From: Thioalkalivibrio halophilus
GTDB lineage: Bacteria > Pseudomonadota > Gammaproteobacteria > Ectothiorhodospirales > Ectothiorhodospiraceae
NCBI RefSeq assembly: GCF_001995255.1
Contig: NZ_MUZR01000028.1
Coordinates: 1-49,128 of the forward strand
Direction of reading: 5' to 3'
Length of the DNA: 49,128 nucleotides
The position numbers were made by a program, and so were the translations under genes. The stretch's first letter is position 1; the number at the start of each line of letters is the position of its first letter. Positions 1 through 13,120 of the stretch are shown here, in pieces. A model generated the notes under the pieces. The model was not told where the DNA came from and did not search any database. It saw only the letters and a list, made by a program, of their open reading frames with translations.

Positions 1-27
1 GTCGATGGCGATGGCCGGGGGGCTCAT
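1..27 (-). CDS. Start of a further cobalamin-operon gene, cut by the window edge
   Basis: Only nine codons are visible (MSPPAIAID). The ATG overlaps the stop codon of cbiD in an ATGA arrangement, the same coupling used between other genes of this operon, so a real gene very probably continues to the left. From operon context it is likely another corrin-ring methyltransferase or tailoring gene such as cbiE, cbiT or cobL, but nine residues cannot identify it. Confidence 0.5.
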
Positions 28-1184
28 CGCGTCACCCCCGGGGCATCCGCGCTGTCACCGGCCGTCCCCACCACTCGGCCCTGGCGATCCACCGCGACCA
101 CCTCCAGCGTGGTATCGGGCAGCTGATAGCTGCGCGCCTGCTCCAGGGCCAGCGCCGCGATGCGGTCCCCCAGTGCCACGCCGGCCTCCTGACAGACGGC
201 GAGGGCCTCGATGCTGGTGTTGCAGCCGCGGATCCGCCGCGCCAGCGCGGCATCCGCCCCGGCGGCCTCGGCGGTGGCGGCGATGAAATCCAGATCGATC
301 GCGCTGCTGCGGCTGTGGGTATCCGGGTGCCCGGCGGCGAACTTGCCCAGCTTGGCGAAGCCCGCCACCAGCGCGACGCGCGGCAGCGGCTGGCGCCGCA
401 GGTATTTGAGCGCCGCGCCGAAGAAATCGCCCATCTCCACCAGGCCCATCTCGTCCAGCCCGTAGCGCTCGCTCGCGGTGCGTTCGCTGGTGCCGCCGGT
501 GCAGCAGGCGACCTGCGGCAGGCCGTTGGCCCGCGCCACGTCGATGGCCTGGTGGATGGAGGCGATGTAGGCGGAACAGGAGAAGGGCCGCACGATGCCG
601 GTGGTGCCGAGGATGGAGATGCCGCCGAGGATGCCGAGGCGCGGATTCATGGTGCGCCGGGCGATGCGTTCGCCGCCATCCACGCCGAGCGTGACCCGGA
701 AGCCGCCCGCATGGCCCAGCTCGCGGGCCAGGCGTTCGAGGTGGTCGCTGATCATCCGCCGCGGCACCGGGTTGATCGCCGGTTCCCCCGGCGACAGCAC
801 CAGCCCGGTGCGGGTCACCGTGCCCACGCCGGGCCCGGCGACGAAGGTCACCCCCGCGGCCGGCCGCGGCTCCACCCGCGCGCGGATCCGGGCGCCGTGG
901 GTGGCATCGGGATCGTCGCCGGCGTCCTTGATGACCGCCGCCTCGGCACCGCCCGGAACCCGCTCCAGCGACGCCAGCGCCAGGCTGACCACCTGGCCGC
1001 GCGGCAGCACCACCTCGGCCGCCGCACTCCGCTCGCCGGCCAGCGCCAGCCGCGCCGCGCCCAGGGCCGCCGCGGTTGCGCTGGTGCCGGTGGTCAGGCC
1101 GGTGCGCAGCGGTGCGGTGCCGTCACGGCTCTCCGCGCGCATCGCTCCGGGTTGCGCGCCCGGCTCGGGTACGGGTTCAACCAT
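24..1184 (-). CDS. cbiD: Cobalt-precorrin-5B C1-methyltransferase CbiD
   Basis: CbiD methylates C1 of cobalt-precorrin-5B with S-adenosylmethionine during anaerobic, early-cobalt-insertion cobalamin synthesis in the cytoplasm. The 386-residue product shows the family's N-terminal TGTSATAAA segment, a central GGTSER motif and the C-terminal stretch GFAKLGKFAAGHPDTHSR. The start chosen is the ATG at 1184, which overlaps the cobA stop by eight bases; an in-frame ATG at 1232 would run deeper into cobA and is less likely. It lies downstream of cobA and ends in ATGA overlap with the next gene. CbiD marks the anaerobic route, which matters when interpreting the CobN-like protein in the same operon. 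Confidence 0.93.
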   Translation of the reverse strand: MVEPVPEPGAQPGAMRAESRDGTAPLRTGLTTGTSATAAALGAARLALAGERSAAAEVVLPRGQVVSLALASLERVPGGAEAAVIKDAGDDPDATHGARIRARVEPRPAAGVTFVAGPGVGTVTRTGLVLSPGEPAINPVPRRMISDHLERLARELGHAGGFRVTLGVDGGERIARRTMNPRLGILGGISILGTTGIVRPFSCSAYIASIHQAIDVARANGLPQVACCTGGTSERTASERYGLDEMGLVEMGDFFGAALKYLRRQPLPRVALVAGFAKLGKFAAGHPDTHSRSSAIDLDFIAATAEAAGADAALARRIRGCNTSIEALAVCQEAGVALGDRIAALALEQARSYQLPDTTLEVVAVDRQGRVVGTAGDSADAPGVTR

Positions 1185-1992
1185 GGATCCCGTCAACCGC
1201 GCCGAGGTCCATCGCGGGCGCCCCGGAAGCATCGCCGGTCAGCCGGGCACGTTCGCCCACCACGTCGCCCACGATCAGCAGACTGGGCGACTCCAGCGCC
1301 AGCGCCGCGGTGCGCCCGGGCAGGTCCCCCAGGGTGCCGGCGACCACGCGCTGCCCCGGCCGGGTCCCGTGCTCGATGATGGCAGCGGGCCGCGTGGCCG
1401 GGGCGCCGGCGGCGACCAGCCCGGCACAGATCTCCGCCAGCGGGTTCAGCCCCATGTAGATCACCACTGTCTGTCGCGGGGCGGCCAGCGCCTCCCAGTC
1501 CAGCTCGGTACTGCCGTTGCGCCGGTGCGCGGTCACGAACTGGCAGCGATGGGCATGATCGCGGTGGGTCAGCGGGATGCCGGCGAACGCCGCGCAGCCG
1601 CCGGCCGCGCTGATGCCGGGGATGACCCGCACCGGGATACCGGCCGCCGCCAGCGCCGCCGCCTCCTCGCCACCACGGCCGAAGACATACGGATCCCCGC
1701 CCTTCAGCCGCACCACGTAACGCCCCTCGCGGGCGCGTTCGATCATCAGCGCGTTCAGCTCCTCCTGGCGCAGGCTGTGGTTGGAGCGCGCCTTGCCCAC
1801 GTAGCAGCGTTCGGCCTGCGGACTGGCCATCGCGAGGATCGCCTCGGGGATCAGGCGGTCGTGCAGCAATACCTCGGCATCGCGCAGCGCCGCGGCCGCG
1901 TCCAGCGTCAGCAGCCCGGGATCACCCGGCCCGGCGCCGACCAGATCCACGCGGCCGGCGGCCGGCGTGCTGCCCGTGAACGCCCGACTCAT
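1177..1992 (-). CDS. cobA: Uroporphyrinogen-III C-methyltransferase (SUMT)
   Basis: SUMT transfers two methyl groups to uroporphyrinogen III to give precorrin-2, the branch point to cobalamin and siroheme. The 271-residue protein matches the usual single-domain length. Visible family motifs are LVGAGPGDPGLLTL near the N-terminus, LKGGDPYVFGRGGEEA in the middle and the VIPGISAA loop that follows. No CysG-type dehydrogenase/ferrochelatase domain is fused. The ATG overlaps the cobB stop (ATGA at 1992-1989), so translation is coupled to cobB, and the 3' end overlaps cbiD. The name is the SUMT cobA, not the E. coli adenosyltransferase of the same name. Confidence 0.93.
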   Translation of the reverse strand: MSRAFTGSTPAAGRVDLVGAGPGDPGLLTLDAAAALRDAEVLLHDRLIPEAILAMASPQAERCYVGKARSNHSLRQEELNALMIERAREGRYVVRLKGGDPYVFGRGGEEAAALAAAGIPVRVIPGISAAGGCAAFAGIPLTHRDHAHRCQFVTAHRRNGSTELDWEALAAPRQTVVIYMGLNPLAEICAGLVAAGAPATRPAAIIEHGTRPGQRVVAGTLGDLPGRTAALALESPSLLIVGDVVGERARLTGDASGAPAMDLGAVDGIHG

Positions 1993-3317
1993 GACGCGAA
2001 CAGGGCCACGGCCGCCTCCGGATTGGAGGGGAACCAGGCGTGCAGATAGGTTGCGGTCAGCCGGCCATCGCGGTAGACCGCCTCGCCGGTGGAACCGGCG
2101 CCGCGGGCACGGGTGCAGTGCGCGAGAGGTTCCACCCCGACCTCGGCCCGGGTGTGGTGGAAGGTGTGGCCGCGCAGCTCGCCCTCCGACAGCGGCGCCG
2201 CCTGCAGCCCGAGGCCCTGCAGCTTGTCCTCCAGACGCGCATGCCCCGGCAGCAGACCGGCCATGGGCGCGGCATGGCCGTCGCGGTCCGCCAGCTCTTC
2301 CAGCAGGTAGAGGAAGCCGCCGCACTCGGCCAGGATCGGCCGGCCGGCCCCGTGATGCGCGGCCAGGTCCGCCTTCAGGCCGGTGTTGGCCGCCAGTGCC
2401 TCCAGGTGCAGTTCGGGATAGCCGCCCGGCAGCCACACCGCATCCACCTCGGGCAGGCGATCGCCGGCCACCGGGGAGAAGAACTCCAGCCGCGCGCCCT
2501 GTGCGCGCAGGAACTCGAGGTTGCCCGGATAGGTGAAGGCGAACGCCGCGTCGCGGGCGATGCCGATGCGCAGCCCGTCCAGCCGCGGGGCCCGTTCGGC
2601 CCCGGGTTGCGAGTCGGGCTCCGCACCCGCGTCCGCTTCGGGGGCGAACGCCACCGGCGCCGGCAGCTCGGTCACCCCGGCCTCGGCGATCGCCTGCGCG
2701 GCGGCCTCCAGACGGGCGTCCAGGTCCGCGACCTCGCCGGCCTGCACCAGCCCGAGGTGGCGGTCGGGCACGCTCAGGGCCTCGTTGCGCTGGATCGCGC
2801 CAAAGAAATGCACGCCGTCCGGGGTCGCATCGCGCAGCATGCGCCCGTGTCCCGGGCTGCCGGTGCGGTTGGCGATCACCCCGGCCAGTGGCATCTCCGG
2901 GCGCCAGGTCGCCAGCCCGTGCACGATGGCGCCGAAGGTCTGGGCCATGCCGCCGGCATCCACCAGCGCCAGCACCGGCAGGCCGAAGGCCACCGCCAGA
3001 TCGGCACCCGAAGGGTCGCCGTCGAACAGGCCCATGGAGCCCTCGACCAGGATCAGGTCCGCATCCTGTGCGGCGGCATGCAGCTTCGCCCGGCAGGCCG
3101 CCTCGCCCACCATCCACAGATGCAGCGGATCCACCGGATGCCCGGAGGCCTGCTCCAGGATCATCGGATCGAGGAAATCCGGGCCGGTCTTGAACACCCG
3201 CACCCGGCGCCCCTGGTTGCGATGGTAACGCGCGATCGCGGCGGTAACCGTGGTCTTGCCCTGCCCCGAGGCCGGCGCCGCCACGAACGCCGCCGGACAG
3301 CTCACCGGGGCACTCAT
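1989..3317 (-). CDS. cobB: Cobyrinate/hydrogenobyrinate a,c-diamide synthase
   Basis: This ATP- and glutamine-dependent enzyme amidates the a and c carboxylates of cobyrinate or hydrogenobyrinate. The 442-residue protein has an N-terminal P-loop ASGQGKTT (residues 16-23) followed by FKTGPDFLDP, typical of the CbiA ATPase domain. A C-terminal class I glutamine amidotransferase domain carries the nucleophile Cys332 in AECGGFLYL and a histidine-rich GHTFHHT segment. The ATG at 3317 is preceded by a GGAGG site at good spacing; an upstream in-frame ATG at 3374 has no such support. An acidic, proline/alanine-rich linker of about 25 residues joins the two domains. CbiA is the equivalent name in the cobalt-early pathway. 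Confidence 0.92.
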   Translation of the reverse strand: MSAPVSCPAAFVAAPASGQGKTTVTAAIARYHRNQGRRVRVFKTGPDFLDPMILEQASGHPVDPLHLWMVGEAACRAKLHAAAQDADLILVEGSMGLFDGDPSGADLAVAFGLPVLALVDAGGMAQTFGAIVHGLATWRPEMPLAGVIANRTGSPGHGRMLRDATPDGVHFFGAIQRNEALSVPDRHLGLVQAGEVADLDARLEAAAQAIAEAGVTELPAPVAFAPEADAGAEPDSQPGAERAPRLDGLRIGIARDAAFAFTYPGNLEFLRAQGARLEFFSPVAGDRLPEVDAVWLPGGYPELHLEALAANTGLKADLAAHHGAGRPILAECGGFLYLLEELADRDGHAAPMAGLLPGHARLEDKLQGLGLQAAPLSEGELRGHTFHHTRAEVGVEPLAHCTRARGAGSTGEAVYRDGRLTATYLHAWFPSNPEAAVALFAS

Positions 3318-3387
3318 GCCGACACCTCCAACTGCAGGCCGGCCGCCTGCCGACCCCGGTGCCCGTCCGGCCAAAGACCGCGCGCGG

Positions 3388-3996
3388 TCAGGCCTCGCCC
3401 GCGGGGGACTCCGGCGGTGCGTCCTCGAAGATGCGCCCGCCTTCCAGTGTCAGGCCGACGCTGCGCAGCTCCACGGCATCCCCCGTGGCATCGCGCCCCG
3501 TGGCATCGCACGCTTCGTGGGTGTACAGCACCCAGTGCCCCTCCGGGTCGCGCCGGTAGAGCTCCACCGCGCCGCTGGCCGGGTCGATCATCAGGTATTC
3601 CTGCAGCGAGGCCAGGGAACGGTAGGCGGCGAACTTCGCCCCGCGGTCGAAGGCCTCGGTCGACGGCGACAGGACCTCCACCACCAGCAGCGGGGCCTGC
3701 TTGTACTGCTCGCGCCCCCGGTCCTGAGGATCGCAGGTGACCATCACGTCCGGATAGAAGAAGGCATCGGCCGCTTCCACCCGCAGCCTCATGTCCGCGA
3801 TGAAGGTCCGGCAGGGTCCGCCGCGCAGGTGTTCGCGCAGGGCTGAAGCCACATTGAGCGAGATCGTCACGTGCCGATCCGAGGCCCCGCCCATCGCAAA
3901 GACCTCGCCGGCCACGAACTCGTGCTTCTCCGGCTGTTCGGCCTCCCACGCCAGAAAGGCGTCGGCATCCATATGTGCGGGTTGCGGGTTGCCCAT
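3388..3996 (-). CDS. Uma2-family (DUF820) nuclease-like protein
   Basis: A 202-residue member of the Uma2/DUF820 family, which has a PD-(D/E)XK restriction-like fold. The sequence shows the family signature FYPDVMVTC (metal-binding Asp), then VVEVLSPST (catalytic Glu) and a following D...K...Y pattern. A GGAG site precedes the ATG. The family is abundant in cyanobacteria and other bacteria but its biological role is not established; nuclease activity is predicted from the fold only. It sits between cobO and cobB in the cobalamin operon with 70-75 base gaps on each side, wider than its neighbours, which suggests a later insertion into the operon rather than a cobalamin function. Confidence 0.85.
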   Translation of the reverse strand: MGNPQPAHMDADAFLAWEAEQPEKHEFVAGEVFAMGGASDRHVTISLNVASALREHLRGGPCRTFIADMRLRVEAADAFFYPDVMVTCDPQDRGREQYKQAPLLVVEVLSPSTEAFDRGAKFAAYRSLASLQEYLMIDPASGAVELYRRDPEGHWVLYTHEACDATGRDATGDAVELRSVGLTLEGGRIFEDAPPESPAGEA

Positions 3997-4071: not shown

Positions 4072-4680
4072 TCACAGCTCGATGCCCTTCTGCGCCTTGA
4101 TGCCGGCCTGGAAGGCGTGCTTGACGACCTGCAGTTCGGTCACCGTGTCGGCGGCGTCGATCAGGGCCTGCGGGGCCGCGCGGCCAGTGGTGATCACGTG
4201 CTGCATCTCGGGGCGCGCGGTAAGGTCCCGCACCACCTCGTCGACATCCAGATAGCCGTACTTCAGCGCGATGTGCAGCTCGTCCAGCAGCACCAGGTCG
4301 ATGGCCGGATCGGTCAGCATGTCGCGGGCGTGGGCCCAGGCCTCGCGCGCGGCCTCGCCATCCTTGTCGCGGTCCTGGGTCTCCCAGGTATAGCCCTCGC
4401 CCATCACGTGGTACTGCACGTTGTCCTGGCGCTTGAAGAAGGCCTCCTCGCCGGTGGCAAAACGGCCCTTGATGAACTGCACGATGCCCACCTGCATGTC
4501 GTGGCCCAGCGCGCGCGCCGCCATGCCGAAGCCGGAGGAGCTCTTGCCCTTGCCGTTGCCGGTCAGCACCAGGAACACACCGCGTTCCTCCTGCGCCTCG
4601 GCGATCTTGCGGTCCACCACTTCCTTCTTGCGCGCCATGCGCTCGGCGTGGCGGCGCGCGCGTTCGTCCTGTTCACTCAT
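4072..4680 (-). CDS. cobO: Cob(I)yrinic acid a,c-diamide adenosyltransferase CobO
   Basis: CobO-type adenosyltransferases attach the 5'-deoxyadenosyl group of ATP to the cobalt(I) of corrinoids. The 202-residue protein has the P-loop GNGKGKSS (residues 41-48), GIVQFIKGRF after it, and a LVLLDELHIALKYGYLD segment, all typical of the family (E. coli BtuR/CobA). The basic N-terminal helix is usual. It follows the ExbB/DUF2149 pair in the operon with a gap of about 50 bases. A second, unrelated adenosyltransferase of PduO type is encoded in the same operon, so the two may serve different corrinoid sources (de novo versus imported); that division is inference. Confidence 0.93.
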   Translation of the reverse strand: MSEQDERARRHAERMARKKEVVDRKIAEAQEERGVFLVLTGNGKGKSSSGFGMAARALGHDMQVGIVQFIKGRFATGEEAFFKRQDNVQYHVMGEGYTWETQDRDKDGEAAREAWAHARDMLTDPAIDLVLLDELHIALKYGYLDVDEVVRDLTARPEMQHVITTGRAAPQALIDAADTVTELQVVKHAFQAGIKAQKGIEL

Positions 4681-4733: not shown

Positions 4734-5033
4734 TCAGTCGCCACCCTCGATCAGCAGCATGCGGCCGGTCTCCGGGTCACGGTAGACCTGGCCCATGGAT
4801 TCGAAACCGGAGCCGGCCTCGCCGGCGCCGTCGGGCAGTTCGGGAACCTCCTCGCCGGCCTCGACCTCCACGCCACCGGCTTCCTGCTGTTCCAGCCCGT
4901 CGTCGGCGGCCACCAGGGCCACGATCAGGCCGACCGCGAACACCAGCATGATGTCCGCAAGGTTGGCCAGCGGCCCCATGGGTTCCTCGTCCGGGGCGTC
5001 GAACCGGCTGGCACGGTAGTGCGGGACCCTCAT
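4734..5033 (-). CDS. DUF2149 protein, ExbD-like single-pass membrane protein
   Basis: A 99-residue protein with one predicted membrane helix (about residues 24-43) followed by an acidic periplasmic tail. The segment LADIMLVFAVGLIVAL places Asp27 at the start of the helix, closely resembling the IDVMLVLLIIF segment of ExbD/TolR, where the aspartate carries the proton path. The start codon overlaps the stop of the upstream ExbB-like gene (ATGA), so the two are made together. DUF2149 proteins are known as neighbours of CobN and MotA/TolQ/ExbB genes. The role proposed here, the D subunit of a proton-driven stator, is inferred from this motif and the gene pairing. Confidence 0.8.
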   Translation of the reverse strand: MRVPHYRASRFDAPDEEPMGPLANLADIMLVFAVGLIVALVAADDGLEQQEAGGVEVEAGEEVPELPDGAGEAGSGFESMGQVYRDPETGRMLLIEGGD

Positions 5034-5470
5034 GCCGCCTCCATGCGTTCCATCGCGCCGTCATACCAGCGCCGGCGCAGGCGGCCGAGCAGGAAACCGA
5101 GGATACCGATCAGCAGCCCCAGGACCGTGGTGTTGAAGGCCACGGTCACCGCCTGCGCCAGTACGTCGAGTTCGCCCCGGCCCATGGCCGCCAGCCCCGG
5201 TCCCAGCGGGATCAGCGTCCCCATCAGCCCCAGCATCGGGCCGATGCGTGCCAGCAGGTCGGCACGGTCGATGCGCCGCCGCGCCAGGAACGCCAGCCGC
5301 TCGGCATTGCCGCTGACCTCCAGGCGCCGCACCCCGCCGGTGCGCTCGCCCACGGCCTGTCCCAGCTCCCAGACGGCCACCGCGACCAGCACCAGCAGGC
5401 CGATGATCACCGGCTCCAGCAGCCAGCTCACCACCGTGTCCATCATTTGCATCGTGATCGAGAACGACAT
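5030..5470 (-). CDS. MotA/TolQ/ExbB-family proton channel protein
   Basis: A 146-residue inner-membrane protein with three hydrophobic segments: about residues 18-36, then a pair around 75-95 and 110-130. The stretch RIGPMLGLMGTLIPLGPGL and the later VAFNTTVLGLLIG match the conserved double-helix region of MotA/TolQ/ExbB channels. It is shorter than E. coli ExbB (244 residues), with a small cytoplasmic loop. A GAGGT site lies seven bases before the ATG. It lies directly between the CobN-like gene and the DUF2149 gene. Together with DUF2149 it probably forms a proton-motive-force-driven stator dedicated to cobalt or corrinoid uptake; the partner it energises is not proven. Confidence 0.85.
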   Translation of the reverse strand: MSFSITMQMMDTVVSWLLEPVIIGLLVLVAVAVWELGQAVGERTGGVRRLEVSGNAERLAFLARRRIDRADLLARIGPMLGLMGTLIPLGPGLAAMGRGELDVLAQAVTVAFNTTVLGLLIGILGFLLGRLRRRWYDGAMERMEAA

Positions 5471-5505
5471 TCGCGTTACCTCATCAATTTTTGTTCAGCG
5501 CTTTC

Positions 5506-8500
5506 TTAACGGCGCCGGCCGGCGACGATGCCCCCGAGCAGCAGCACGAACAGGGCCCCGGAGACCAGCCAGGGGATCCACGGCATGGCGCGCGCCTCAC
5601 CCGATTCGCGGCCGTCCTCGACCTCCGCCGCCTCGACCTCGGCCGGCTCCGGGGCCTCCTGCATCTCGCGGGCATCCGGCTGTTCCAGCGGCTGGATCTC
5701 GGCCATGCGCGCCGGGTCGGTCTCGGCGGGCTCGCGTTCGATCTGCGCGGCCTCGCGCACGGCGTCGAAGGCCTCGGCCAGTTCCGCGTCGTCCAGGCGT
5801 TCAGCGACTTCATCGAGCACGGGGTGATCCGGCCGCGTGTGGCCGCTGCCGGGCAGACCGTGCTCGGCCACCAGTTCGGCGAAGTCCTCGGACAGCGCCT
5901 GCAGGACCTCGGGATCGGCGTCCCAGAACTCGCGGCTCGCGGCCACCAGCAGCGTGGCCTGCATGTGCGTCTTCACGTGCACCTTGTGGCCGTCTTCCAG
6001 GAACTCGTCGAGCCCCAGGTCGTGCCGGTCCTGCAGGTAGACGTCGTGCACGTGGTCCCAGGCTTCGGAGCCGATCACGTGGGGACTGGTCACCTGCCAG
6101 CCCCACAGGTTGTTGACGAAATCGGCGGTGAAGGTCCGCGCCCCCGCATAGCCGTGGTCCATCAGCGGCTCGATCCACTGCGGGTTCAGGTTCTGCCCGT
6201 GCAGCTCGGTCATCAGCGCACGCTGCAGGCTCTCCACGCGCGGGTTGTCGGGGTCGGCATGCTGCAGGATGCGATTGTCCGGCGGGGTTCCGCGGGCGTG
6301 TTCCACCGCGGCCGACAGACCGCCCTGGAAGTCGAAGCCGTCGTCGTTGTCCAGCAGGCCGTAGAGATGGCTGGCGCGTCCCAGATAGGTGCGGCCCACG
6401 CCTTCCAGGCGCGCATCGAAGGCCTCGTGAGCGGGCTCGCCGCGGGTCCCGGCGCCATACGCATGCCCCATGCGCCGGGCATAGGCGTCGGCCAGCTCGG
6501 CACGATCCTCCCAGGCCCCGGAGCGGTCGGCCAGACGGTTCACCCCGGCGCCATAGGCCCCCGGCGCGGTGCCGAACACCCGCAGCGCCGCCTGGCGGCC
6601 GGCCTCGACCGCCTCCACGCCATCGGATTTCAGCGCCCGGGTATCGGCTACCCACTGGCTCGCCACGTCGTTGCTCTCCAGCGGCTCCCGGCCCGGATCC
6701 CTCAGGTCCTCGCCCAGGGGCTTCAGGGCCTCGTCCAGCGCCTCGTCCAGATGGGGGTATTCGGCGCGGATGGTCTTCGACGAGCCGTCCAGCGCCAGGC
6801 GCGCGGCCTGGTCCAGCCAGACCAGCTGATCCTCGTACAGGTCGCGGAACAGGCCCGAGGTGGTGAACAGGGCATCCCGCCGACGCTCACGATCGGCCTC
6901 GTCGAGATCCATCAGCTTCAGGCCCTCGACGATCCCGCGGCTGTTCCACTCGGGCTTGACCCCCAGCATGTCGAGTCCGAACGCCACCATCACGCCTTCG
7001 TCGCGCACGGTGTCGGAGGCCCACAGCACCACGGCCTCGCTGCCTTCGGCCTCGGGGTCGCCCTGCTCGCGGGCATCCGCGGCCAGGTCCTGGCCCAGGC
7101 TCCAGGCGATGCGAGTGGGCACCAGATCGGAGGACAGGGCGTGGAAATTGCGCCCGGTGGGCAGGACATCCGGGGTGCGCACCGGATCGTTGCCGCGGCT
7201 CGGCGGCACGAAACGGCCCTCAAGCCCCGCCAGCAGGTTCGCTCCCTCATTGGCGGGCGAACCCTCCAGGGCCTCGCGCATCGCCGCGTCCGGCTCCGCG
7301 TCGCCGGCCATCGAGTCGAGCATGGTGTCCACGGCCTCGCCATCCCAGTCGCGGGCCAGCACATGCAGCCCGAGGGGCATGTGCTCCTCCTGCATGTCGG
7401 TCACCCAGTGGCCCACGTCGTGGACCAGAAGCTCTTCGTCGAGATCGGCCAGACCGGCCTCGTGGTCCTCTTCATGACCATTCCCGGCCCCGTGTTCGTG
7501 CGCGTGCTCATGCTCGTGCGCGTGTTTCCCGTCATATCCCTCGGCATGATCCTCGTGCCGATCGTGCTCGTGCTCGTGCTCGTGCTCCCGATCGTGTTCC
7601 TTGCCCCTTTCACCCGAGTGGTCATGGTTGTGGTGGTCATCACCCTCGTGAGCATGTTCCTCGTCATGACCGTGGTCGTGGTCATGGGCGTCCATCGCCT
7701 CCTCGATGGTCTCGCTCAGACCAAGCTCCTCGATTCGGGCCAGCAGCGTCTCCGCGGCCCGGGCCTGAGTCGGCGAATTCGGGTCGGTGCTCGCCTCATA
7801 GCTTTCGACCAGCTGGCGCAGTTCCAGCAGGTCGTCGTAGAGCTCGGTGGTCGCCAGCGCCGGCGTCAGATGGCTGATGATCACGCCCTGGGCGCGACGC
7901 TTGGCCTGGATGCCCTCGCCCACGCCATCGACGATGTAGGGATACAGCACCGGCAACGGGCCGCCGAGGAGTTCCGGATAGTCGTCCGGGGCCAGCCCGG
8001 CGCGGCGCCGCGGCAGGAATTCACGGGTGGAGTGGCGCCCCATGTAGACCAGCGCATCCGCCTCGAAATGGTCGCGCAGCCAGTGGTAGAAGCCCACGTA
8101 CTGATGGGTGGGCGGGAACGTGGTGTTGGCGTGCAGCAGACGCTCGCTGACCTCCCAGCCCCGCGGCGGCTGCGGGCCGATGAACACGTTGCCGTATGCG
8201 ATCCCGGGGAAATGCATCGCCCCGTCGTGGATCATGGCCTCGCCCGGGGGTTCGCCCCAGCCGCTCAGGCCCGGGATGCCGGTGCGCGTGAGGGCGTCGC
8301 GCAGGGATTCCGCCCGGGCCAGATCGCCACCGCCGTCCAGCAGCGCCTCCCACTCGCGCTCCAGCTGGTCGATCAGTGACTGCGCACGCTCCTGTGCGTC
8401 GTGCGAGTGGTTCTGCACCATGTGGCGCAGGTCGCCGATGCCGTTCTCCAGCGCGCGCTCGGCGGCGTCGGTCGCGCCCAGTTCGCGGGCCTTGAGCAGC

Positions 8501-10074
8501 CGCTCGTGCAGATAGCCCACCGGACCGTGCACCAGTTCGGCCTGTACGGTCTCCGGCAGGGTCTCGAAGTAAGACCGATAGGTCTCCGCATCCAGGCTGG
8601 CCACGCGGCCGGCGATGTCGGCGGCCGCGTCGGCATGCTCGGGCAGGTTGACGCCGCGGTCCTGGATATCATCCAGCAGGGCCTCGGCATCTTCCGGGTG
8701 ATCCCCGGTGTCGTAGCCCGCGTCGCGCAGCAGATCCAGGGTCTCCAGCAGCGATTCGGGGACGTCCAGCTTGTCGGCGCCGATGTTGTGGCGCCCCGGC
8801 GGATGGTTGTAGTAGACGATGGCCACGCGCTTGTCGGCATTGGAGCGCTCGCGCAGGCGCTGCCAGCGGGCCATGCGTTCGGCCACCGCGTCGACCCGTT
8901 CCCTGATCGGCTCGGAGAGCATCAGGCGCACGCCGGTGCGGTCGTCGATCTCGGGTTCGCCGGCGGCGGCCAGCACCGTGGGCTGGCTCACGCCCTGCAG
9001 TTCGGGCATGGCCACCTGATAGTGGACGCTGTCCCGGGGGATGCCGTCATGCGCGACCCGCCATTCATCCTCGCTGCGCGAGGCCAGGCGCAGCCCCTTG
9101 ACCACGGGCACGTCCAGCTCGCCCAGCGCCCCGGCAACCGCCTCGCGGTTACCGCCGCCCCCGATCACGAAGTCCTGCAGGGAAACGATACCGGCGAGAT
9201 CGGCGGGTGCGGCCGACTGCGCCAGGTCCTCCACCGCCTGACGGCTGGCGCCGCCCCAGCGCGCCAGCACGCCGAAGCACTGCAGATCGCGCGATTCCAG
9301 CGCGTCGCAGGCGGCGTCCAGCAGCGCACGGTCCCCCGGCCGGTCGCCGGTGTCCAGGTCCAGCAGGGCGACCGCCGGGCGTTCATCCAGCTCCATTGCG
9401 GCGGCGTCATTTACCGCGCGGCCGTCGTGGTAGAAACGGATGGTCTCGCGCGGATCCGGCCGCGGCACGTCGATGTCGTGGCCGGCCTCGGCGGCCAGCC
9501 AGCGCATCAGGCCCTCCATGCTCTCCGGCGTACGCCCCTGGTAATACGCCCGGCCGGTGAGCCAGCCGGCCTGTTCGGGGAACGCCTGCCGCTGCTCCCG
9601 CAGGTGTTCGTGCGGATCCTCGTCGGCATCCGGATTGGCCGCGAGCTCGGTCCGTTCGTCGTCTTCCAGACCGGCCAGCGGCTGCTCGCCGTCCAGGCGC
9701 GACAGGGACGTCAGCTCCCGGTCGCTGTTGATCGCCAGCAACGGCACTTCGGCATCCGGGCCGCGCTCGCGCAGCAGCCGCGTCAGCCGGCCGACCTCGT
9801 CGCCCAGCACCGCCGCCACCAGCACGGCATCCGCGTCCTGCCACAACGCGATGACTTCGGAGTCATCCTTGTCGGCCAGCTGCTCCGGCGTACGCAGGCG
9901 CACGTCGGATTCGGGGAAGGCCTCGAGGAAACGATGCGCCCCGGCCGTGACCTCGGCGGCGGAGCGATCGGAGACGATGCCGAGGATATGCGGCGAAGGG
10001 TTCGTGTCCGCCGCCGGCACCCCCGGCAGCAGCAGCGCCAGCAACAGGGGGGAGCGTTTTTTCCATGTACTCAT
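5506..10074 (-). CDS. cobN: CobN/magnesium-chelatase-H-like protein, predicted periplasmic and membrane-anchored
   Basis: A 1522-residue CobN/BchH-family protein. Family motifs include YYNHPPGRHNIGADKLDVP (about residue 420), a region around 640-720 ending in YPYIVDGVGEGIQAKRR, and a conserved C-terminal part around 1340-1420. The usual HGTxEWLPGK motif is altered (GRHSTREFLPRRRAGL). The N-terminus (MSTWKKRSPLLLALLLPGVPAADT) reads as a cleavable signal peptide, and the C-terminus ends in one hydrophobic helix plus RRR, so the bulk should be periplasmic. Residues about 797-874 form a histidine/aspartate/glutamate-rich insert, likely metal binding. The ATG at 10074 follows an AGGTG site; the longer open frame upstream is not supported. 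No cobS or cobT is nearby. Family membership is clear, but function as a true cobaltochelatase is doubtful. Confidence 0.88.
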   Translation of the reverse strand: MSTWKKRSPLLLALLLPGVPAADTNPSPHILGIVSDRSAAEVTAGAHRFLEAFPESDVRLRTPEQLADKDDSEVIALWQDADAVLVAAVLGDEVGRLTRLLRERGPDAEVPLLAINSDRELTSLSRLDGEQPLAGLEDDERTELAANPDADEDPHEHLREQRQAFPEQAGWLTGRAYYQGRTPESMEGLMRWLAAEAGHDIDVPRPDPRETIRFYHDGRAVNDAAAMELDERPAVALLDLDTGDRPGDRALLDAACDALESRDLQCFGVLARWGGASRQAVEDLAQSAAPADLAGIVSLQDFVIGGGGNREAVAGALGELDVPVVKGLRLASRSEDEWRVAHDGIPRDSVHYQVAMPELQGVSQPTVLAAAGEPEIDDRTGVRLMLSEPIRERVDAVAERMARWQRLRERSNADKRVAIVYYNHPPGRHNIGADKLDVPESLLETLDLLRDAGYDTGDHPEDAEALLDDIQDRGVNLPEHADAAADIAGRVASLDAETYRSYFETLPETVQAELVHGPVGYLHERLLKARELGATDAAERALENGIGDLRHMVQNHSHDAQERAQSLIDQLEREWEALLDGGGDLARAESLRDALTRTGIPGLSGWGEPPGEAMIHDGAMHFPGIAYGNVFIGPQPPRGWEVSERLLHANTTFPPTHQYVGFYHWLRDHFEADALVYMGRHSTREFLPRRRAGLAPDDYPELLGGPLPVLYPYIVDGVGEGIQAKRRAQGVIISHLTPALATTELYDDLLELRQLVESYEASTDPNSPTQARAAETLLARIEELGLSETIEEAMDAHDHDHGHDEEHAHEGDDHHNHDHSGERGKEHDREHEHEHEHDRHEDHAEGYDGKHAHEHEHAHEHGAGNGHEEDHEAGLADLDEELLVHDVGHWVTDMQEEHMPLGLHVLARDWDGEAVDTMLDSMAGDAEPDAAMREALEGSPANEGANLLAGLEGRFVPPSRGNDPVRTPDVLPTGRNFHALSSDLVPTRIAWSLGQDLAADAREQGDPEAEGSEAVVLWASDTVRDEGVMVAFGLDMLGVKPEWNSRGIVEGLKLMDLDEADRERRRDALFTTSGLFRDLYEDQLVWLDQAARLALDGSSKTIRAEYPHLDEALDEALKPLGEDLRDPGREPLESNDVASQWVADTRALKSDGVEAVEAGRQAALRVFGTAPGAYGAGVNRLADRSGAWEDRAELADAYARRMGHAYGAGTRGEPAHEAFDARLEGVGRTYLGRASHLYGLLDNDDGFDFQGGLSAAVEHARGTPPDNRILQHADPDNPRVESLQRALMTELHGQNLNPQWIEPLMDHGYAGARTFTADFVNNLWGWQVTSPHVIGSEAWDHVHDVYLQDRHDLGLDEFLEDGHKVHVKTHMQATLLVAASREFWDADPEVLQALSEDFAELVAEHGLPGSGHTRPDHPVLDEVAERLDDAELAEAFDAVREAAQIEREPAETDPARMAEIQPLEQPDAREMQEAPEPAEVEAAEVEDGRESGEARAMPWIPWLVSGALFVLLLGGIVAGRRR

Positions 10075-10231: not shown

Positions 10232-10798
10232 TCAGCCGCCGGAGGCCTCGCGCCGCGCGGCGGGCTGCCACAGGACCTCGGAACCGTTCTCGTGCCGCGC
10301 CAGCAACCGGCACAGCACGAACAGCAGATCCGACAGGCGATTGAGGTAGGCCAGCGAGCTCGGCCGCAGCGCCTCGTGGTGATTGACCGCGACCAGCCGC
10401 CGCTCGGCGCGGCGGCAGACGGTGCGGGCAATATGGCAATCCGCGGTGGCCGGGCCGCCGCCCGGGAGGATGAACTCCTCCAGCGGCGGCAGATCGGCGT
10501 TGAAGCTCTCGAGCTCGACGTCGAGGCGCTCCACGGAGGCCTCCGGCAGCGCCTGATGCCCCGGCACCGCCAGCTCCGCGCCCAGATCAAACAGCTCATG
10601 CTGGATCAGCGACAGCGAACGCCGCACGTCCTCGGGCAGGTCGTGGACCAGCACCCGGCCGACCACGCTGTTCAGCTCGTCTACGTCGCCGAAGGCCTCG
10701 ACCCGGTGGCTGTCCTTGTCCACGCGCGAGCCGTCACCGAGGCCGGTGCGGCCCTCGTCGCCGGTGCGCGTCACGATCCTCGACAGTCGATTGCCCAT
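10232..10798 (-). CDS. pduO: PduO-type ATP:cob(I)alamin adenosyltransferase
   Basis: A 188-residue adenosyltransferase of the PduO/EutT/MMAB trimeric family, evolutionarily unrelated to CobO. Motifs seen are TRTGDEGRTGL near the N-terminus (ATP binding), GDVDELNS, FILPGG and the CRRAER helix with the conserved arginines. It converts cob(I)alamin to adenosylcobalamin in the cytoplasm. It lies three bases after btuB, so it is transcribed with the importer, which suggests that it acts on imported cobalamin. A 157-base gap with a strong hairpin separates it from the CobN-like gene downstream. Confidence 0.93.
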   Translation of the reverse strand: MGNRLSRIVTRTGDEGRTGLGDGSRVDKDSHRVEAFGDVDELNSVVGRVLVHDLPEDVRRSLSLIQHELFDLGAELAVPGHQALPEASVERLDVELESFNADLPPLEEFILPGGGPATADCHIARTVCRRAERRLVAVNHHEALRPSSLAYLNRLSDLLFVLCRLLARHENGSEVLWQPAARREASGG

Positions 10799-10801
10799 GC
10801 C

Positions 10802-12661
10802 TTACCTCTGCTGCTGATAACGCAGTTTCACGAACGCTGCGCGGCCGGGGTTATTGAAACCACCCTGGGTCTCGTAATCCCGGTCGAAAAGATTGGTCAG
10901 GGAGCCTTCGACCGTCCATTCGGGGTCGAGGGCATACGCCGCGCGCAGGTTCATGGTGCCGTAGCCCGAAAGCCGCTCGTCGTTACTGGCGTCGTCGTAA
11001 GTGCGACCCCGGGCAAGGACCGTACCGCCCACGGACAAATCGCCGATCCGGCGATCCAGATCGAAGCGGGCCGAGACTGGCGCCCGGCGCTCCAGCTCAT
11101 TCCCCGTGTCACGGTCCTCGGCGTCCAGCAGGGTCAACGACACCCGCGAATTCCACGGACCAAGATCGTGCCCACCCTCAATTTCCAGTCCGCGAATCCG
11201 CGCGTTTTCGACATTGCGCGGCTCATAGACATCACTAAAAGGATTGCCGTCATCACAATTAGCCACACAGCGGTTCACAATAAGGTCATCAACCCTGGTT
11301 TCGAACACCGCCACATCCACATAGGCAAGGCTGGCTGAATACCTCCCGCCCAGTTCAAATGTTTGCGATTCTTCCGGGGCAAGGTCCGGATTACCTCGGA
11401 ACCACCCCTGATCGGGCCAGTAAAGGTCATTGAAGGTCGGCGCCTTGAAGGCGGTGCCATAGCTGGCGCGCAGCCGCAGAGCGTCGGTAGCCTGCATGCC
11501 CCAGGCGACCTGACCGGTGGTCTTGTCACCGAACTGCTCGTTGTCGTCGTAGCGCAGCGAGCCTTCCAGATCATGGTTGCCGAGCTCGGTGCGCACGACC
11601 GAATAGACGCCTACGTTGTAGCGCGAATCCTCATCAAAATCTTCGTTACTATCGACCCGATCTTCGTAGGCATCCACCCCGGCGATCAGGTCGGTGCGTT
11701 CACCCAGGCGGACATCGTTACGCCAGGTCAGCTGATCCCGCCGGGTGTCGAAACGGGAGTCGGCAACCCCGTTTTCGAAATTTTCGTTTTCGTCACGGCT
11801 TTGAGCATAGGCAAGCTCCGTATCCCATTGCTCCAGGACCGGGAAACGGACTCCGGCCTGCACTGCCCCGTGAACAAAATCCGTCTCATCCGTACTGAAA
11901 GTGTCGACTTCAGTGTTACCTTCGGAATACAAGACATTGCCGAAGAGTTCGATCCCGTTGTCGAGGCGGTGAGCAACCTTGCCGGCCAGCGAGGTGTTGT
12001 CATAGCCGTCGGGATCGTCATCACCCATGTCATCCTGGACATTGATGCCTTCGGTGTCGTACATGCTCACGGACAGGCTGTAATCGGTGCGCCCGGTGCC
12101 GCCGGCCACGCCGAGCCCGGCCTCCCAGGTACTGAAGCTGCCGGCGCCGAGGAAGGCATTGACCCGCGGCGGACCTTCGCGGCCCGCGCGGCTGAAGACC
12201 TGGGTCACCCCGCCGATGGCATCGGAGCCGTAGATGGAGGTGCGCGGCCCGCGCACGATCTCCACGCGTTCGATCTCCTCGGGCGGCAGGAACTGCCAGC
12301 TGGCACCGCCGGTGGTGGCCGACCCCATGCGCACGCCGTCGATCAGCATCAGGTGGTGATCGGATTCGGTGCCACGCAGGCGCACGCTGGACTGCTTGCC
12401 GAACGGACCGGCGCTGGAGACCGAGACCCCGGCGCGTCCCTCCACCAGATCGGTGAACTGGCGCGGCTGCAGGCGTTCGATCTCTTCGCGGTCGATCACG
12501 GTCACCGAGGCCAGGGCCTCGTCGACGGTCCGGCTGAGGCGGGTCGCGGTGACCTGAACGGGTTCCAGGGTCGCGGCATCGGAGTCGGTGCCCGGCGCTT
12601 CGTCGGCCACGGCCGGGGACACGGCTGCAACGATGGCTGCGGAAAGGATGCTGCGTTTCAT
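10802..12661 (-). CDS. btuB: TonB-dependent vitamin B12 receptor BtuB
   Basis: A 619-residue outer-membrane receptor with a signal peptide (about residues 1-19), a TonB-box-like LEPVQVTAT segment (32-40), an N-terminal plug with SSVRLRGTESDHHLMLIDG and VEIVRGPRTSIYGSDAIGG, and a long beta-barrel. The B12 assignment rests on the cobalamin riboswitch directly upstream and on the operon. Asp-rich loops are present (about residues 200-220 and 310-330). The C-terminus ends in YQQQR instead of the usual terminal aromatic residue. The central part of the gene is visibly richer in A and T than its 5' end and its neighbours. It is the first gene of the operon. Confidence 0.93.
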   Translation of the reverse strand: MKRSILSAAIVAAVSPAVADEAPGTDSDAATLEPVQVTATRLSRTVDEALASVTVIDREEIERLQPRQFTDLVEGRAGVSVSSAGPFGKQSSVRLRGTESDHHLMLIDGVRMGSATTGGASWQFLPPEEIERVEIVRGPRTSIYGSDAIGGVTQVFSRAGREGPPRVNAFLGAGSFSTWEAGLGVAGGTGRTDYSLSVSMYDTEGINVQDDMGDDDPDGYDNTSLAGKVAHRLDNGIELFGNVLYSEGNTEVDTFSTDETDFVHGAVQAGVRFPVLEQWDTELAYAQSRDENENFENGVADSRFDTRRDQLTWRNDVRLGERTDLIAGVDAYEDRVDSNEDFDEDSRYNVGVYSVVRTELGNHDLEGSLRYDDNEQFGDKTTGQVAWGMQATDALRLRASYGTAFKAPTFNDLYWPDQGWFRGNPDLAPEESQTFELGGRYSASLAYVDVAVFETRVDDLIVNRCVANCDDGNPFSDVYEPRNVENARIRGLEIEGGHDLGPWNSRVSLTLLDAEDRDTGNELERRAPVSARFDLDRRIGDLSVGGTVLARGRTYDDASNDERLSGYGTMNLRAAYALDPEWTVEGSLTNLFDRDYETQGGFNNPGRAAFVKLRYQQQR

Positions 12662-12822
12662 GTCTTCGGATCTCCCGGCGAGCCGCCCGCACGCCGCTGG
12701 TTCACGGGGATCGCGCCGGCGCGAGGGATGAAGACGAGGAACGCATTCCCGGCGGGAAACGGGTACGGGGACCCGTGGCGGGAACGGTCATCCGTCTCGC
12801 ACGCCCTCCGCGTGCCGCACGA
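12662..12822 (-). promoter_or_regulatory. Leader/expression platform between the riboswitch and btuB
   Basis: About 160 bases of untranslated leader. It holds a perfect six-pair hairpin (12799-12815, GCACGC with GCGTGC) immediately after the riboswitch core, and a weaker GGGTACGGGGACCC hairpin around 12763-12776. No T-tract follows either, so control by occluding the btuB ribosome-binding site (GGGAG about ten bases before the ATG) seems more likely than intrinsic termination. That is inference. Confidence 0.5.
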
Positions 12823-13057
12823 CCATTCCCCGGCCGGTCTCCGGGCTGACGAGCGGGACATTCCCGGCGGGCGGCGCCTTCCCGTGTCCATGACACAGTG
12901 GCATTCGGCCGCCAGCCTCGAGGATCCACTGCCGAAGGACTCCGGAATGGATCCGCGCTCGATCACCGTTGCGGGGGCAGCGCCGGACTCGCGCGTGAGC
13001 GCTCACCGGACTTCCCGTTTAACCCGGCGGCGAAACCGCCAGGGCACCGAGGAACGG
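12823..13057 (-). promoter_or_regulatory. Cobalamin (adenosylcobalamin) riboswitch
   Basis: The minus strand carries the canonical cobalamin aptamer. In order they are GGTGCCC (13048-13042), GGGAAGTCCGGTG (13016-13004), the CTGCCCCCGCAACGGT core (12980-12965), GCCACTG (12902-12896), GGGAAGGCGCC (12883-12873) and the B12 box TCAGCCCGGAGACCGGCC (12849-12832). A closing P1 helix pairs CCGTTCC (13057-13051) with GGAATGG (12829-12823), with one G-U pair. It precedes btuB and should repress the whole cobalamin operon when the cofactor is abundant. Confidence 0.95.
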
Positions 13058-13120
13058 GGCGCAGGGTACATGAGCCCCCCCTGATTTTCCACCCGTGCTC
13101 TCCGGCCGACCGCGCGGCGT

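Follow-up and report, generated by a model that had tools for sequence, protein, structure and literature searches.

A cobalamin-linked clade of CobN-like proteins with a predicted signal peptide and, in most members, an adjoining ExbB-like/DUF2149 pair in Thioalkalivibrio halophilus and its relatives

A 49,128-nucleotide stretch of DNA from Thioalkalivibrio halophilus (contig NZ_MUZR01000028.1 of assembly GCF_001995255.1; hereafter the window, which is the entire contig in a genome of 2.87 Mb in 97 contigs) carries a minus-strand operon in the order cobalamin riboswitch, btuB, pduO, CobN-like gene, ExbB-like gene, DUF2149 gene, cobO, Uma2-family gene, cobB, cobA and cbiD (Table 1). Sequence comparison placed the CobN-like protein in a distinct B12-linked clade of 80 intact loci sharing the motif GRHST, and it is this clade that is new here. 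We judge it narrowly probable that the protein is a B12-regulated, periplasmic and membrane-anchored member of the chelatase fold that has its own proton-driven stator and acts on corrinoids between BtuB and BtuFCD. The sequence features behind this reading are the gene order, the riboswitch, the signal sequence, the C-terminal helix, a conserved acidic position within the helix of DUF2149, and a tight association between C-terminal helix and stator.

The survey drew on a class sample of 274 genomes, 36 of which gave a CobN-like match (counting two, G075 and G211, with short or marginal matches only), and on a locus set made up of the best 80 of 280 relatives from a scan of named genomes plus nine loci from the class sample. 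Aligned were 80 close-type loci (group A), six HmuS-like gammaproteobacterial proteins (group B) and 15 CobN/BchH proteins assigned by motif (group C). The window is one of the 80 group A loci, and its stator was entered as positive from its own Pfam matches. Eleven partial or short loci were dropped (L075, L079, L094, L111, L115, L120, L123, L127, L138, L143 and L058); two of these, L127 and L138, have a CobN frame that ends early with stator genes further on, and would have counted as possessing a stator without a helix. The CobN-like frames of L094 (Marinobacter salarius), L120, L127 and L138 are clearly shortened, for which frameshift, decay and assembly error are all possible. Distinct genomes number fewer than 80, because L037/L125 and L040/L130 are apparently the same records and a single strain contributes both L110 and L128. 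The genomes behind the named loci are partly drafts or metagenome-assembled genomes of unstated completeness, so absences in them are softer. In a tree rooted on group C, group A formed a single clade with a local support of 0.874 and group B a clade with a support of 1.0. The motif was GRHST in 80/80 members of group A, GTHG in 6/6 of group B and G(K/T)HG in 15/15 of group C; at the one group B locus checked, HmuY (PF14064) and DUF2149 were both found.

The initial annotation had described a 1522-residue CobN-like protein with a signal peptide and one C-terminal helix, a description borne out by the open reading frame, by hydropathy and by conservation in relatives. The N-terminus has the pattern of a cleavable signal peptide, with a basic start, a leucine run and V-P-A ahead of residue 22, and the last 25 residues hold one predicted helix followed by RRR. 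Both calls used hydropathy thresholds of our own choosing (1.6 for the signal peptide and 1.25 for the helix) together with conservation, rather than a trained predictor. The signal-peptide threshold was passed by 79 of the 80 group A members, the remaining one reaching 1.58, and also by one cytoplasmic-type row, L047.

ExbB-like and DUF2149 genes (PF01618 and PF09919) directly follow the CobN-like gene in the window, as had been noted from the sequence, and they do so beyond chance, in 9/9 close relatives from the class sample besides the window and in 57/80 intact group A loci; at L071 the ExbB-like gene lies at the contig end and the contig stops before any DUF2149 gene could show. A C-terminal helix was predicted in all 58 group A loci with an ExbB-like gene (hydropathy 1.32–3.32) and in none of the 22 group A loci without a stator (hydropathy at most 0.98). 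All 22 come from Marinobacter and group together in a single clade nested among relatives that have the stator (support 0.998), so they represent one joint loss of helix and stator and not 22 independent ones. With a clade-specific profile, adopted because PF09919 missed three of five positive controls, no DUF2149 match was obtained in 10/10 Marinobacter genomes and 5/5 controls were found, and no stator genes are annotated next to the CobN copy on a Marinobacter plasmid. Across the class sample, the contig with the DUF2149 match also gave a CobN-like match in 18/18 DUF2149-positive genomes; the remaining 18 CobN-bearing genomes gave no DUF2149 match, with the qualification that PF09919 is insensitive and divergent members may be missed. 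A tblastn search of plasmid records with the window's DUF2149 protein also gave no match, and distant DUF2149 genes are annotated in those records nonetheless. Methanosarcina acetivorans, used as a control genome, had a DUF2149 match; it is an archaeon, and archaea are without outer-membrane receptors.

Channel family and acidic helix residue together predict that the ExbB-like/DUF2149 pair is an ExbB/ExbD-type stator. Asp27 of DUF2149 lies within the helix in 61/61 aligned proteins (the Runella homologue has Glu) and Thr85 of the ExbB-like protein is invariant in 63/63. Searches of the PDB returned weak MotA/ExbB/TolQ matches for the ExbB-like protein and no match of value for DUF2149, and in hhalign the DUF2149 Asp aligned to the ExbD Asp with a probability of 4% (P 0.01), a weak result, the ExbB-like control aligning over one column. 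The DUF2149 model consists of a helix at residues 25–43 plus a hairpin and is uninformative on assembly (mean predicted local distance difference test score, pLDDT, 66). By gene content the stator is distinct from the general Ton motor, because ExbD matches occur on other contigs of the window's genome (two full, one partial) and because canonical exbB-exbD-tonB genes stand beside it in Trichlorobacter.

ATP-driven partners showed a nearly complementary distribution. Neither CobS (top score 31.8 bits, cut-off 558.55; no separate search was made for CobT) nor a ChlI/ChlD-type partner (best match 43 bits) was found in the window's genome, which upholds the earlier statement that CobS is absent and supports the view that the protein is not a biosynthetic chelatase. 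Profile TIGR02442 scored above 300 bits in all eight cytoplasmic-type genomes examined (of the 18 CobN-bearing genomes without DUF2149) and at most 48.2 bits in 16/16 stator-type genomes, none of the 24 tested reaching its full-length cut-off of 779.45. A CobS-like gene occurs in the cytoplasmic-type genome G258 (568.5 bits) and, on a different contig from the CobN-like gene, in the stator-type genome G143 (491.6 bits), so the exclusion of AAA+ partners from the stator type is incomplete. The neighbourhood survey that the initial annotation had named as a means of refuting it therefore came out the opposite way, with this CobN type accompanying ExbB/DUF2149 and not CobS or ChlI/ChlD, G143 being the exception. 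This near-partition is our main argument for a stator that replaces the AAA+ motor, and we infer such a replacement on the understanding that related genomes are not independent.

The association with corrinoids was tested by neighbourhood and by riboswitch. In 70/80 group A loci btuB, cobO, cobB or pduO is encoded on the same strand no more than 9 kb away, and RF00174 matched in 15 of the 19 group A loci scanned besides the window (L069, L089, L103, L125, L131, L140, L083, L135, L081, L121, L124, L139, L142, L077 and L176), with no match in L041, L042, L117 and L134, nor in the HmuS-like L044. Genes behind a cobalamin riboswitch are normally expressed at times of B12 shortage. In two Massilia loci (L083 and L121) the riboswitch stands immediately before the cobN-exbB-DUF2149 unit and other B12 genes are not near. 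The placement of the window's CobN-like gene downstream of riboswitch and btuB was correctly read before, except that the PduO-type gene lying between went unmentioned. Two further riboswitch observations were made, namely that L139 has two cobalamin riboswitches on opposite strands (9366-9613 and 9696-9856) between a btuB-like gene and cobN, and that L041 has a thiamine pyrophosphate riboswitch (12346-12476) just downstream of its cobN-exbB-DUF2149 unit, near a receptor gene.

Markers of corrin-ring synthesis were scarce in the hosts. Of 34 system-bearing genomes, 26 gave no match to either CbiC or CbiD and seven had both; the window's genome has CbiD and no CbiC match, and its CbiC may have fallen into the gap where the contig stops. 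In the sister genome CbiC lies about 4 kb beyond CbiD. With both markers missing in 26/34 genomes, de novo synthesis cannot be the general task of the protein, and for the same reason a general role with free cobalt is unlikely; of the earlier suggestion that the machine receives cobalt or a corrinoid behind BtuB, it is the corrinoid-uptake path that is supported. As a candidate for the cobalt chelatase missing from the window's genome, CbiX scored at most 22.6 bits there (the search did not extend to CbiK, and the operon runs off the end of the contig). The operon of Marinobacter lipolyticus (L103) reads btuB-cobN-btuF-btuC-btuD-cobB-cobO-cobQ, and in two other Marinobacter loci (L107 and L176) cobN is located after cobB. 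The operons of all three keep cobB, though neither CbiC nor CbiD was matched in the L103 and L107 genomes; the retention would make sense if the cells salvage a precursor that precedes cobyric acid. That the module replaces BtuFCD was also considered and is rejected in view of FecCD-type permease matches in 24/24 genomes (weak only in three; 280.9 bits in the window's genome), and the btuF-btuC-btuD-type genes that share an operon with cobN in Marinobacter argue further against it.

Scores did not assign the protein to one of its characterised relatives. Pairwise comparison gave 335.8 bits to HmuS versus 335.2 to CobN, profiles gave 487.5 versus 474.6 and the C-terminal third 210.9 versus 185.2, and scores fell short of the NCBIfam CobN/BchH equivalog cut-offs by a wide margin (best 563.3 versus 1619 bits; TIGR02257 481.5 versus 822.05). 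In the structural model the fold of the body is nearest to CobN among solved structures, the best VIA-align matches being CobN 7c6o (Z 42.2) and 9fpc (Z 42.0; root-mean-square deviation, rmsd, 1.8 over 378 residues), then ChlH, with HmuS at Z 33.8–34.0 (rmsd 3.0 over 483–485 residues). This model is good over its C-terminal half and poor around domain III, for which reason we make no claim about the geometry of the active site.

Residues R680, H681, S682 and T683 are invariant in the alignment of all 80 group A members, as are D1245 and D1248 within the local motif DN(D/N)DxFDxxGG. These aspartates stand in place of the HmuS motif LSLDHxxEFMGG (His-1209, Glu-1212), which was not found in the window's protein; His-1209 occurs in only 2/6 HmuS-like gammaproteobacterial proteins, so this motif separates weakly. 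An Asp at the D1245 position is shared by the solved CobN 9uk9 and by four of the six group B proteins, so the position does not single out CobN. The Met-rich insertion of HmuS was not found in group A, and the six HmuS-like gammaproteobacterial proteins (14–15 residues there) are also without it. For the HmuS heme ligands Met-79 and His-254 the head of the protein could not be aligned, the sole His in residues 232–345 of the window's protein being His-342. At roughly the Met-rich site at least eight His are found in 18 of the 80 group A members, and the others have 23–25 residues there. A cytoplasmic-type CobN without a signal peptide (L045) carries a His-Asp repeat of its own where the Thioalkalivibrio protein has its insert.

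A working mechanism can be proposed from these features. BtuB would deliver the corrinoid to the periplasm, where the CobN-like protein, its C-terminal helix held in the stator, would bind it. Proton flow through the ExbB-like/DUF2149 pair would then power a conformational change that is AAA+-driven in the cytoplasmic relatives, and the product would pass to BtuFCD and on to the cytoplasmic Cob enzymes. The stator would thereby substitute for the AAA+ subunits and their ATP hydrolysis (ChlI/ChlD, CobS/CobT), and it would engage the CobN-like protein at the C-terminal helix in the way that ExbB-ExbD engages TonB at the TonB helix; the His-rich loop of some members may collect metal. As to chemistry, we offer only tentatively that cobalt is inserted into scavenged corrinoids that are metal-free, or that wrongly metalated ones are re-metalated. 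Cobalt corrins resist removal of cobalt without being destroyed and some purple sulfur bacteria produce cobalt-free corrinoids (PMC6771967, in the part available), and metal-free B12 ligands are the subject of PMC7756841. Metal insertion or repair is weakly favoured because of the riboswitch, this resistance to cobalt removal, the cobalt-free corrinoids, the CobN-like core fold and the His-rich loop (18/80); our estimate for metalation was lowered because neither the sequence scores nor the position of Asp-1245 singles out CobN. The wider proposal of one fold with two motors, a cytoplasmic AAA+ one and a periplasmic proton-driven stator, with metalation or repair of scavenged corrinoids taking place beyond the cytoplasm in the B12 branch, is more doubtful again, its standing having been lowered because by sequence score CobN has no advantage over HmuS.

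Several results weigh against a stator-driven, corrinoid-directed protein of this kind. Localisation, complex, transport and metal chemistry are predictions from sequence, and we have counted this to its disadvantage. The correlation of helix and stator amounts to one evolutionary event, seen in a sample of the best 80 of 280 relatives plus nine, and Marinobacter retains the predicted periplasmic protein although helix and stator are both gone, so there are lineages that manage without the motor; of the proton-driven machine in the initial annotation, a dedicated stator is supported as a prediction. To these are added the CobS-like gene of G143, the weak homology of DUF2149 to ExbD, the absence of the His-rich insert from 62/80 group A members, HmuS scores at least equal to those of CobN, and the fact that the characterised relatives of the same architecture (HmuS) remove metal. 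Lastly, cobalamin riboswitch and neighbouring B12 genes are both lacking at L041, L042, L117 and L134.

The alternatives overlap, and the confidence we place in each is not meant to add up to one. About as likely as metalation, and like it no better than possible, is a hand-off of corrinoid without metal chemistry, in which the chelatase fold would serve as a corrinoid receptor and force from the stator would release the corrinoid or pass it from BtuB to BtuF; this departs from our preferred reading in chemistry only. The position of Marinobacter cobN between btuB and btuF-btuC-btuD would suit such a machine, and so would hosts of which 26/34 lack both corrin-ring markers. It leaves unaccounted for the invariance (80/80) of H681, the catalytic His throughout the superfamily, and the metal-binding-like, His-rich loop of 18/80 members, and the Marinobacter operon already has a BtuF-type receptor.

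Less likely is an HmuS-like de-chelatase for corrinoids or cobalt-tetrapyrroles that would strip cobalt in the periplasm for metal supply. The gene set is the same as that of HmuS, a shown heme de-chelatase, sequence scores to HmuS are no lower than to CobN, and relatives in zinc and nickel contexts exist. Against this, the riboswitch suggests expression at B12 shortage, when destroying corrinoids makes little sense, cobalt is hard to remove from cobalt corrins, hosts without both ring markers (26/34) would have little use for free cobalt, and the HmuS motif LSLDHxxEFMGG is lacking.

A shade less probable still is that the ExbB-like/DUF2149 pair is a dedicated Ton-type energiser of BtuB, alongside which the CobN-like protein works independently. 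A gene for a TonB-dependent receptor does occur on the same strand at a distance of 9 kb or less in 68/80 loci, and HmuU/HmuV and PA1924 are assigned to receptors in the available parts of the papers on them. Loss of the stator, however, coincides with loss of the CobN helix and not of btuB, Trichlorobacter has canonical exbB-exbD-tonB genes alongside, the window's genome has ExbD matches elsewhere, and some units, such as L083, have no receptor nearby. A classical late-insertion cobaltochelatase, working in the cytoplasm in de novo B12 synthesis, has a CobN fold, a B12 operon and the window's cobA, cobB and cbiD in its favour and is close to refuted by the predicted signal peptide and anchor, the lack of CobS or ChlI/ChlD in the window's genome, the 26/34 hosts lacking both ring markers, and CbiD itself, which belongs to the route with early cobalt insertion.

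The features of the operon are collected in Table 1. No second CobN match was found in the window's genome, and the closest named relative found was Thioalkalivibrio sp. ALJ24 (94% identity over the best segment). Relatives of the Uma2-family gene occupy the corresponding place inside the B12 operons of L065, L036 and L082, the last with two matches.

Table 1. Features of the B12 operon and of its CobN-like protein in the window
Feature	Position	Strand	Basis and remarks
Cobalamin riboswitch RF00174, operon leader	12815..13066	minus	cmscan 70 bits, E 2.5e-15
btuB, TonB-dependent corrinoid receptor	10802..12661	minus	TIGR01779 522 bits, under cut-off 599.7; Pfam Plug and barrel
PduO-type cob(I)alamin adenosyltransferase	10232..10798	minus	TIGR00636 197 bits; PF01923
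CobN-like class-I chelatase-fold protein, 1522 aa	5506..10074	minus	PF02514 791.7 bits
Predicted signal peptide, residues 1-21	10012..10074	minus	sequence and hydropathy; kept in relatives
R680-H681 in clade motif GRHST	8032..8037	minus	H681 aligned to HmuS His-538
His/Asp/Glu-rich insert, residues 797-871	7462..7686	minus	roughly at HmuS Met-rich insertion site
D1245, aligned to HmuS His-1209	6340..6342	minus	alignment
Predicted C-terminal membrane helix, about residues 1500-1518	5521..5577	minus	hydropathy
ExbB-like proton-channel protein (predicted), 146 aa	5030..5470	minus	PF01618 37.4 bits
DUF2149, ExbD-like one-helix partner (predicted), 99 aa	4734..5033	minus	PF09919 33.2 bits; 4-base overlap with exbB
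cobO/btuR adenosyltransferase	4072..4680	minus	TIGR00708 230 bits
Uma2-family gene	3388-3996	minus	between cobO and cobB
cobB/cbiA a,c-diamide synthase	1989..3371	minus	NF002204 414.7 bits
cobA, uroporphyrinogen-III C-methyltransferase	1177..2049	minus	TIGR01469 285.5 bits; true start within range
cbiD	24..1232	minus	TIGR00312 391.6 bits; contig end here, apparently mid-operon

Were a stator-driven, corrinoid-directed CobN-like protein to prove correct, proton-motive force would directly drive a periplasmic metal-tetrapyrrole protein, and the use of ExbB-type stators would extend beyond outer-membrane transport and motility. DUF2149 would be explained, and a step of corrinoid salvage would be defined in marine and soda-lake bacteria. 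Were the more doubtful metalation or repair of corrinoids to prove correct as well, a metal step in B12 acquisition would become possible in the periplasm. HmuU/HmuV of gut and oral Bacteroidota would likewise receive a testable job, that of driving HmuS and not the receptor, and Marinobacter, in which helix and stator were lost together, offers a ready natural control.

The module is not unprecedented, as closely similar gene sets for heme (hmu), for zinc (PA1922-PA1925) and on a Geobacter plasmid, in which a CobN-like gene is joined by ExbB-like and/or DUF2149 genes, are already published. The name BtuS, for a proposed third CobN type, reportedly goes back to Rodionov 2003. It has been applied in Methanosarcina (PMC10846266) and to BtuS1/BtuS2 of Bacteroides fragilis, for which the role shown is heme-iron use (PMC6460266). 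Our searches of the open-licence literature, for the most part of listings, brought up no statement of a stator driving a chelatase-fold protein or of a joint loss of helix and stator, a result limited by the search and not proof of absence. HmuS is a heme de-chelatase that removes iron from heme (PMC12583661), the topology of the Porphyromonas gingivalis protein has been described (PMC13227078), and hmu operons have been listed with receptor, CobN, ExbB-like and DUF2149 genes (PMC10434189), each according to the part of the source available. So far as those parts go, HmuS with HmuU/HmuV (hmuYRSTUV of Bacteroidota; PDB 9d26, 9p4s) resembles the window's system in its chelatase fold, signal sequence and terminal helices and in adjoining a TonB-dependent receptor, an ExbB-like protein and DUF2149, an architecture that the window repeats with a signal sequence and a C-terminal helix beside ExbB-like and DUF2149 genes. 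The HmuS system has as its own heme/iron control, HmuY, the Met-rich insertion in domain IV and LSLDHxxEFMGG, whereas the window has GRHST and an Asp at the His-1209 place, and in its operon no HmuY or heme receptor was found, a cobalamin riboswitch and BtuB being there instead.

Pseudomonas aeruginosa PA1922-PA1925 similarly unites receptor, CobN-like, 'ExbD'-annotated and DUF2149 genes in one operon, and differs in being Zur-controlled and linked to zinc starvation (PMC4542158, PMC8531726 and PMC9431628, in the portions available). On a plasmid of Runella slithyformis (L177) the receptor, ExbB-like, DUF2149 and CobN genes are surrounded by hypF, hypC, hypD, hypE and a gene for a urease accessory protein, so the module may also exist in a form for nickel. 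For the Geobacter plasmid pSZ77, the accessible part of a 2012 report describes a cobN cluster without CobS/CobT and suggests that it serves to transport siderophores, B12 or precursors of corrinoids (PMC3403914). The cluster, on record pGLOV01 of Trichlorobacter (Geobacter) lovleyi, shares with the window cobalamin riboswitches (two in its case), TonB-dependent receptors and ExbB-like, DUF2149 and CobN genes, in the order receptor, DUF2162, ExbB-like, DUF2149, CobN, canonical exbB, exbD, tonB and second receptor. Its CobN belongs to another branch with the motif GTHG and 31.7% identity over matched parts, and DUF2162 and the canonical exbB-exbD-tonB set further distinguish the cluster. Finally, the CobN cobaltochelatase (with CobST or ChlI/ChlD) resembles the window's protein in the modelled fold of the body, having the top Z among solved structures, and is in contrast cytoplasmic, biosynthetic and driven by AAA+ partners at the expense of ATP.

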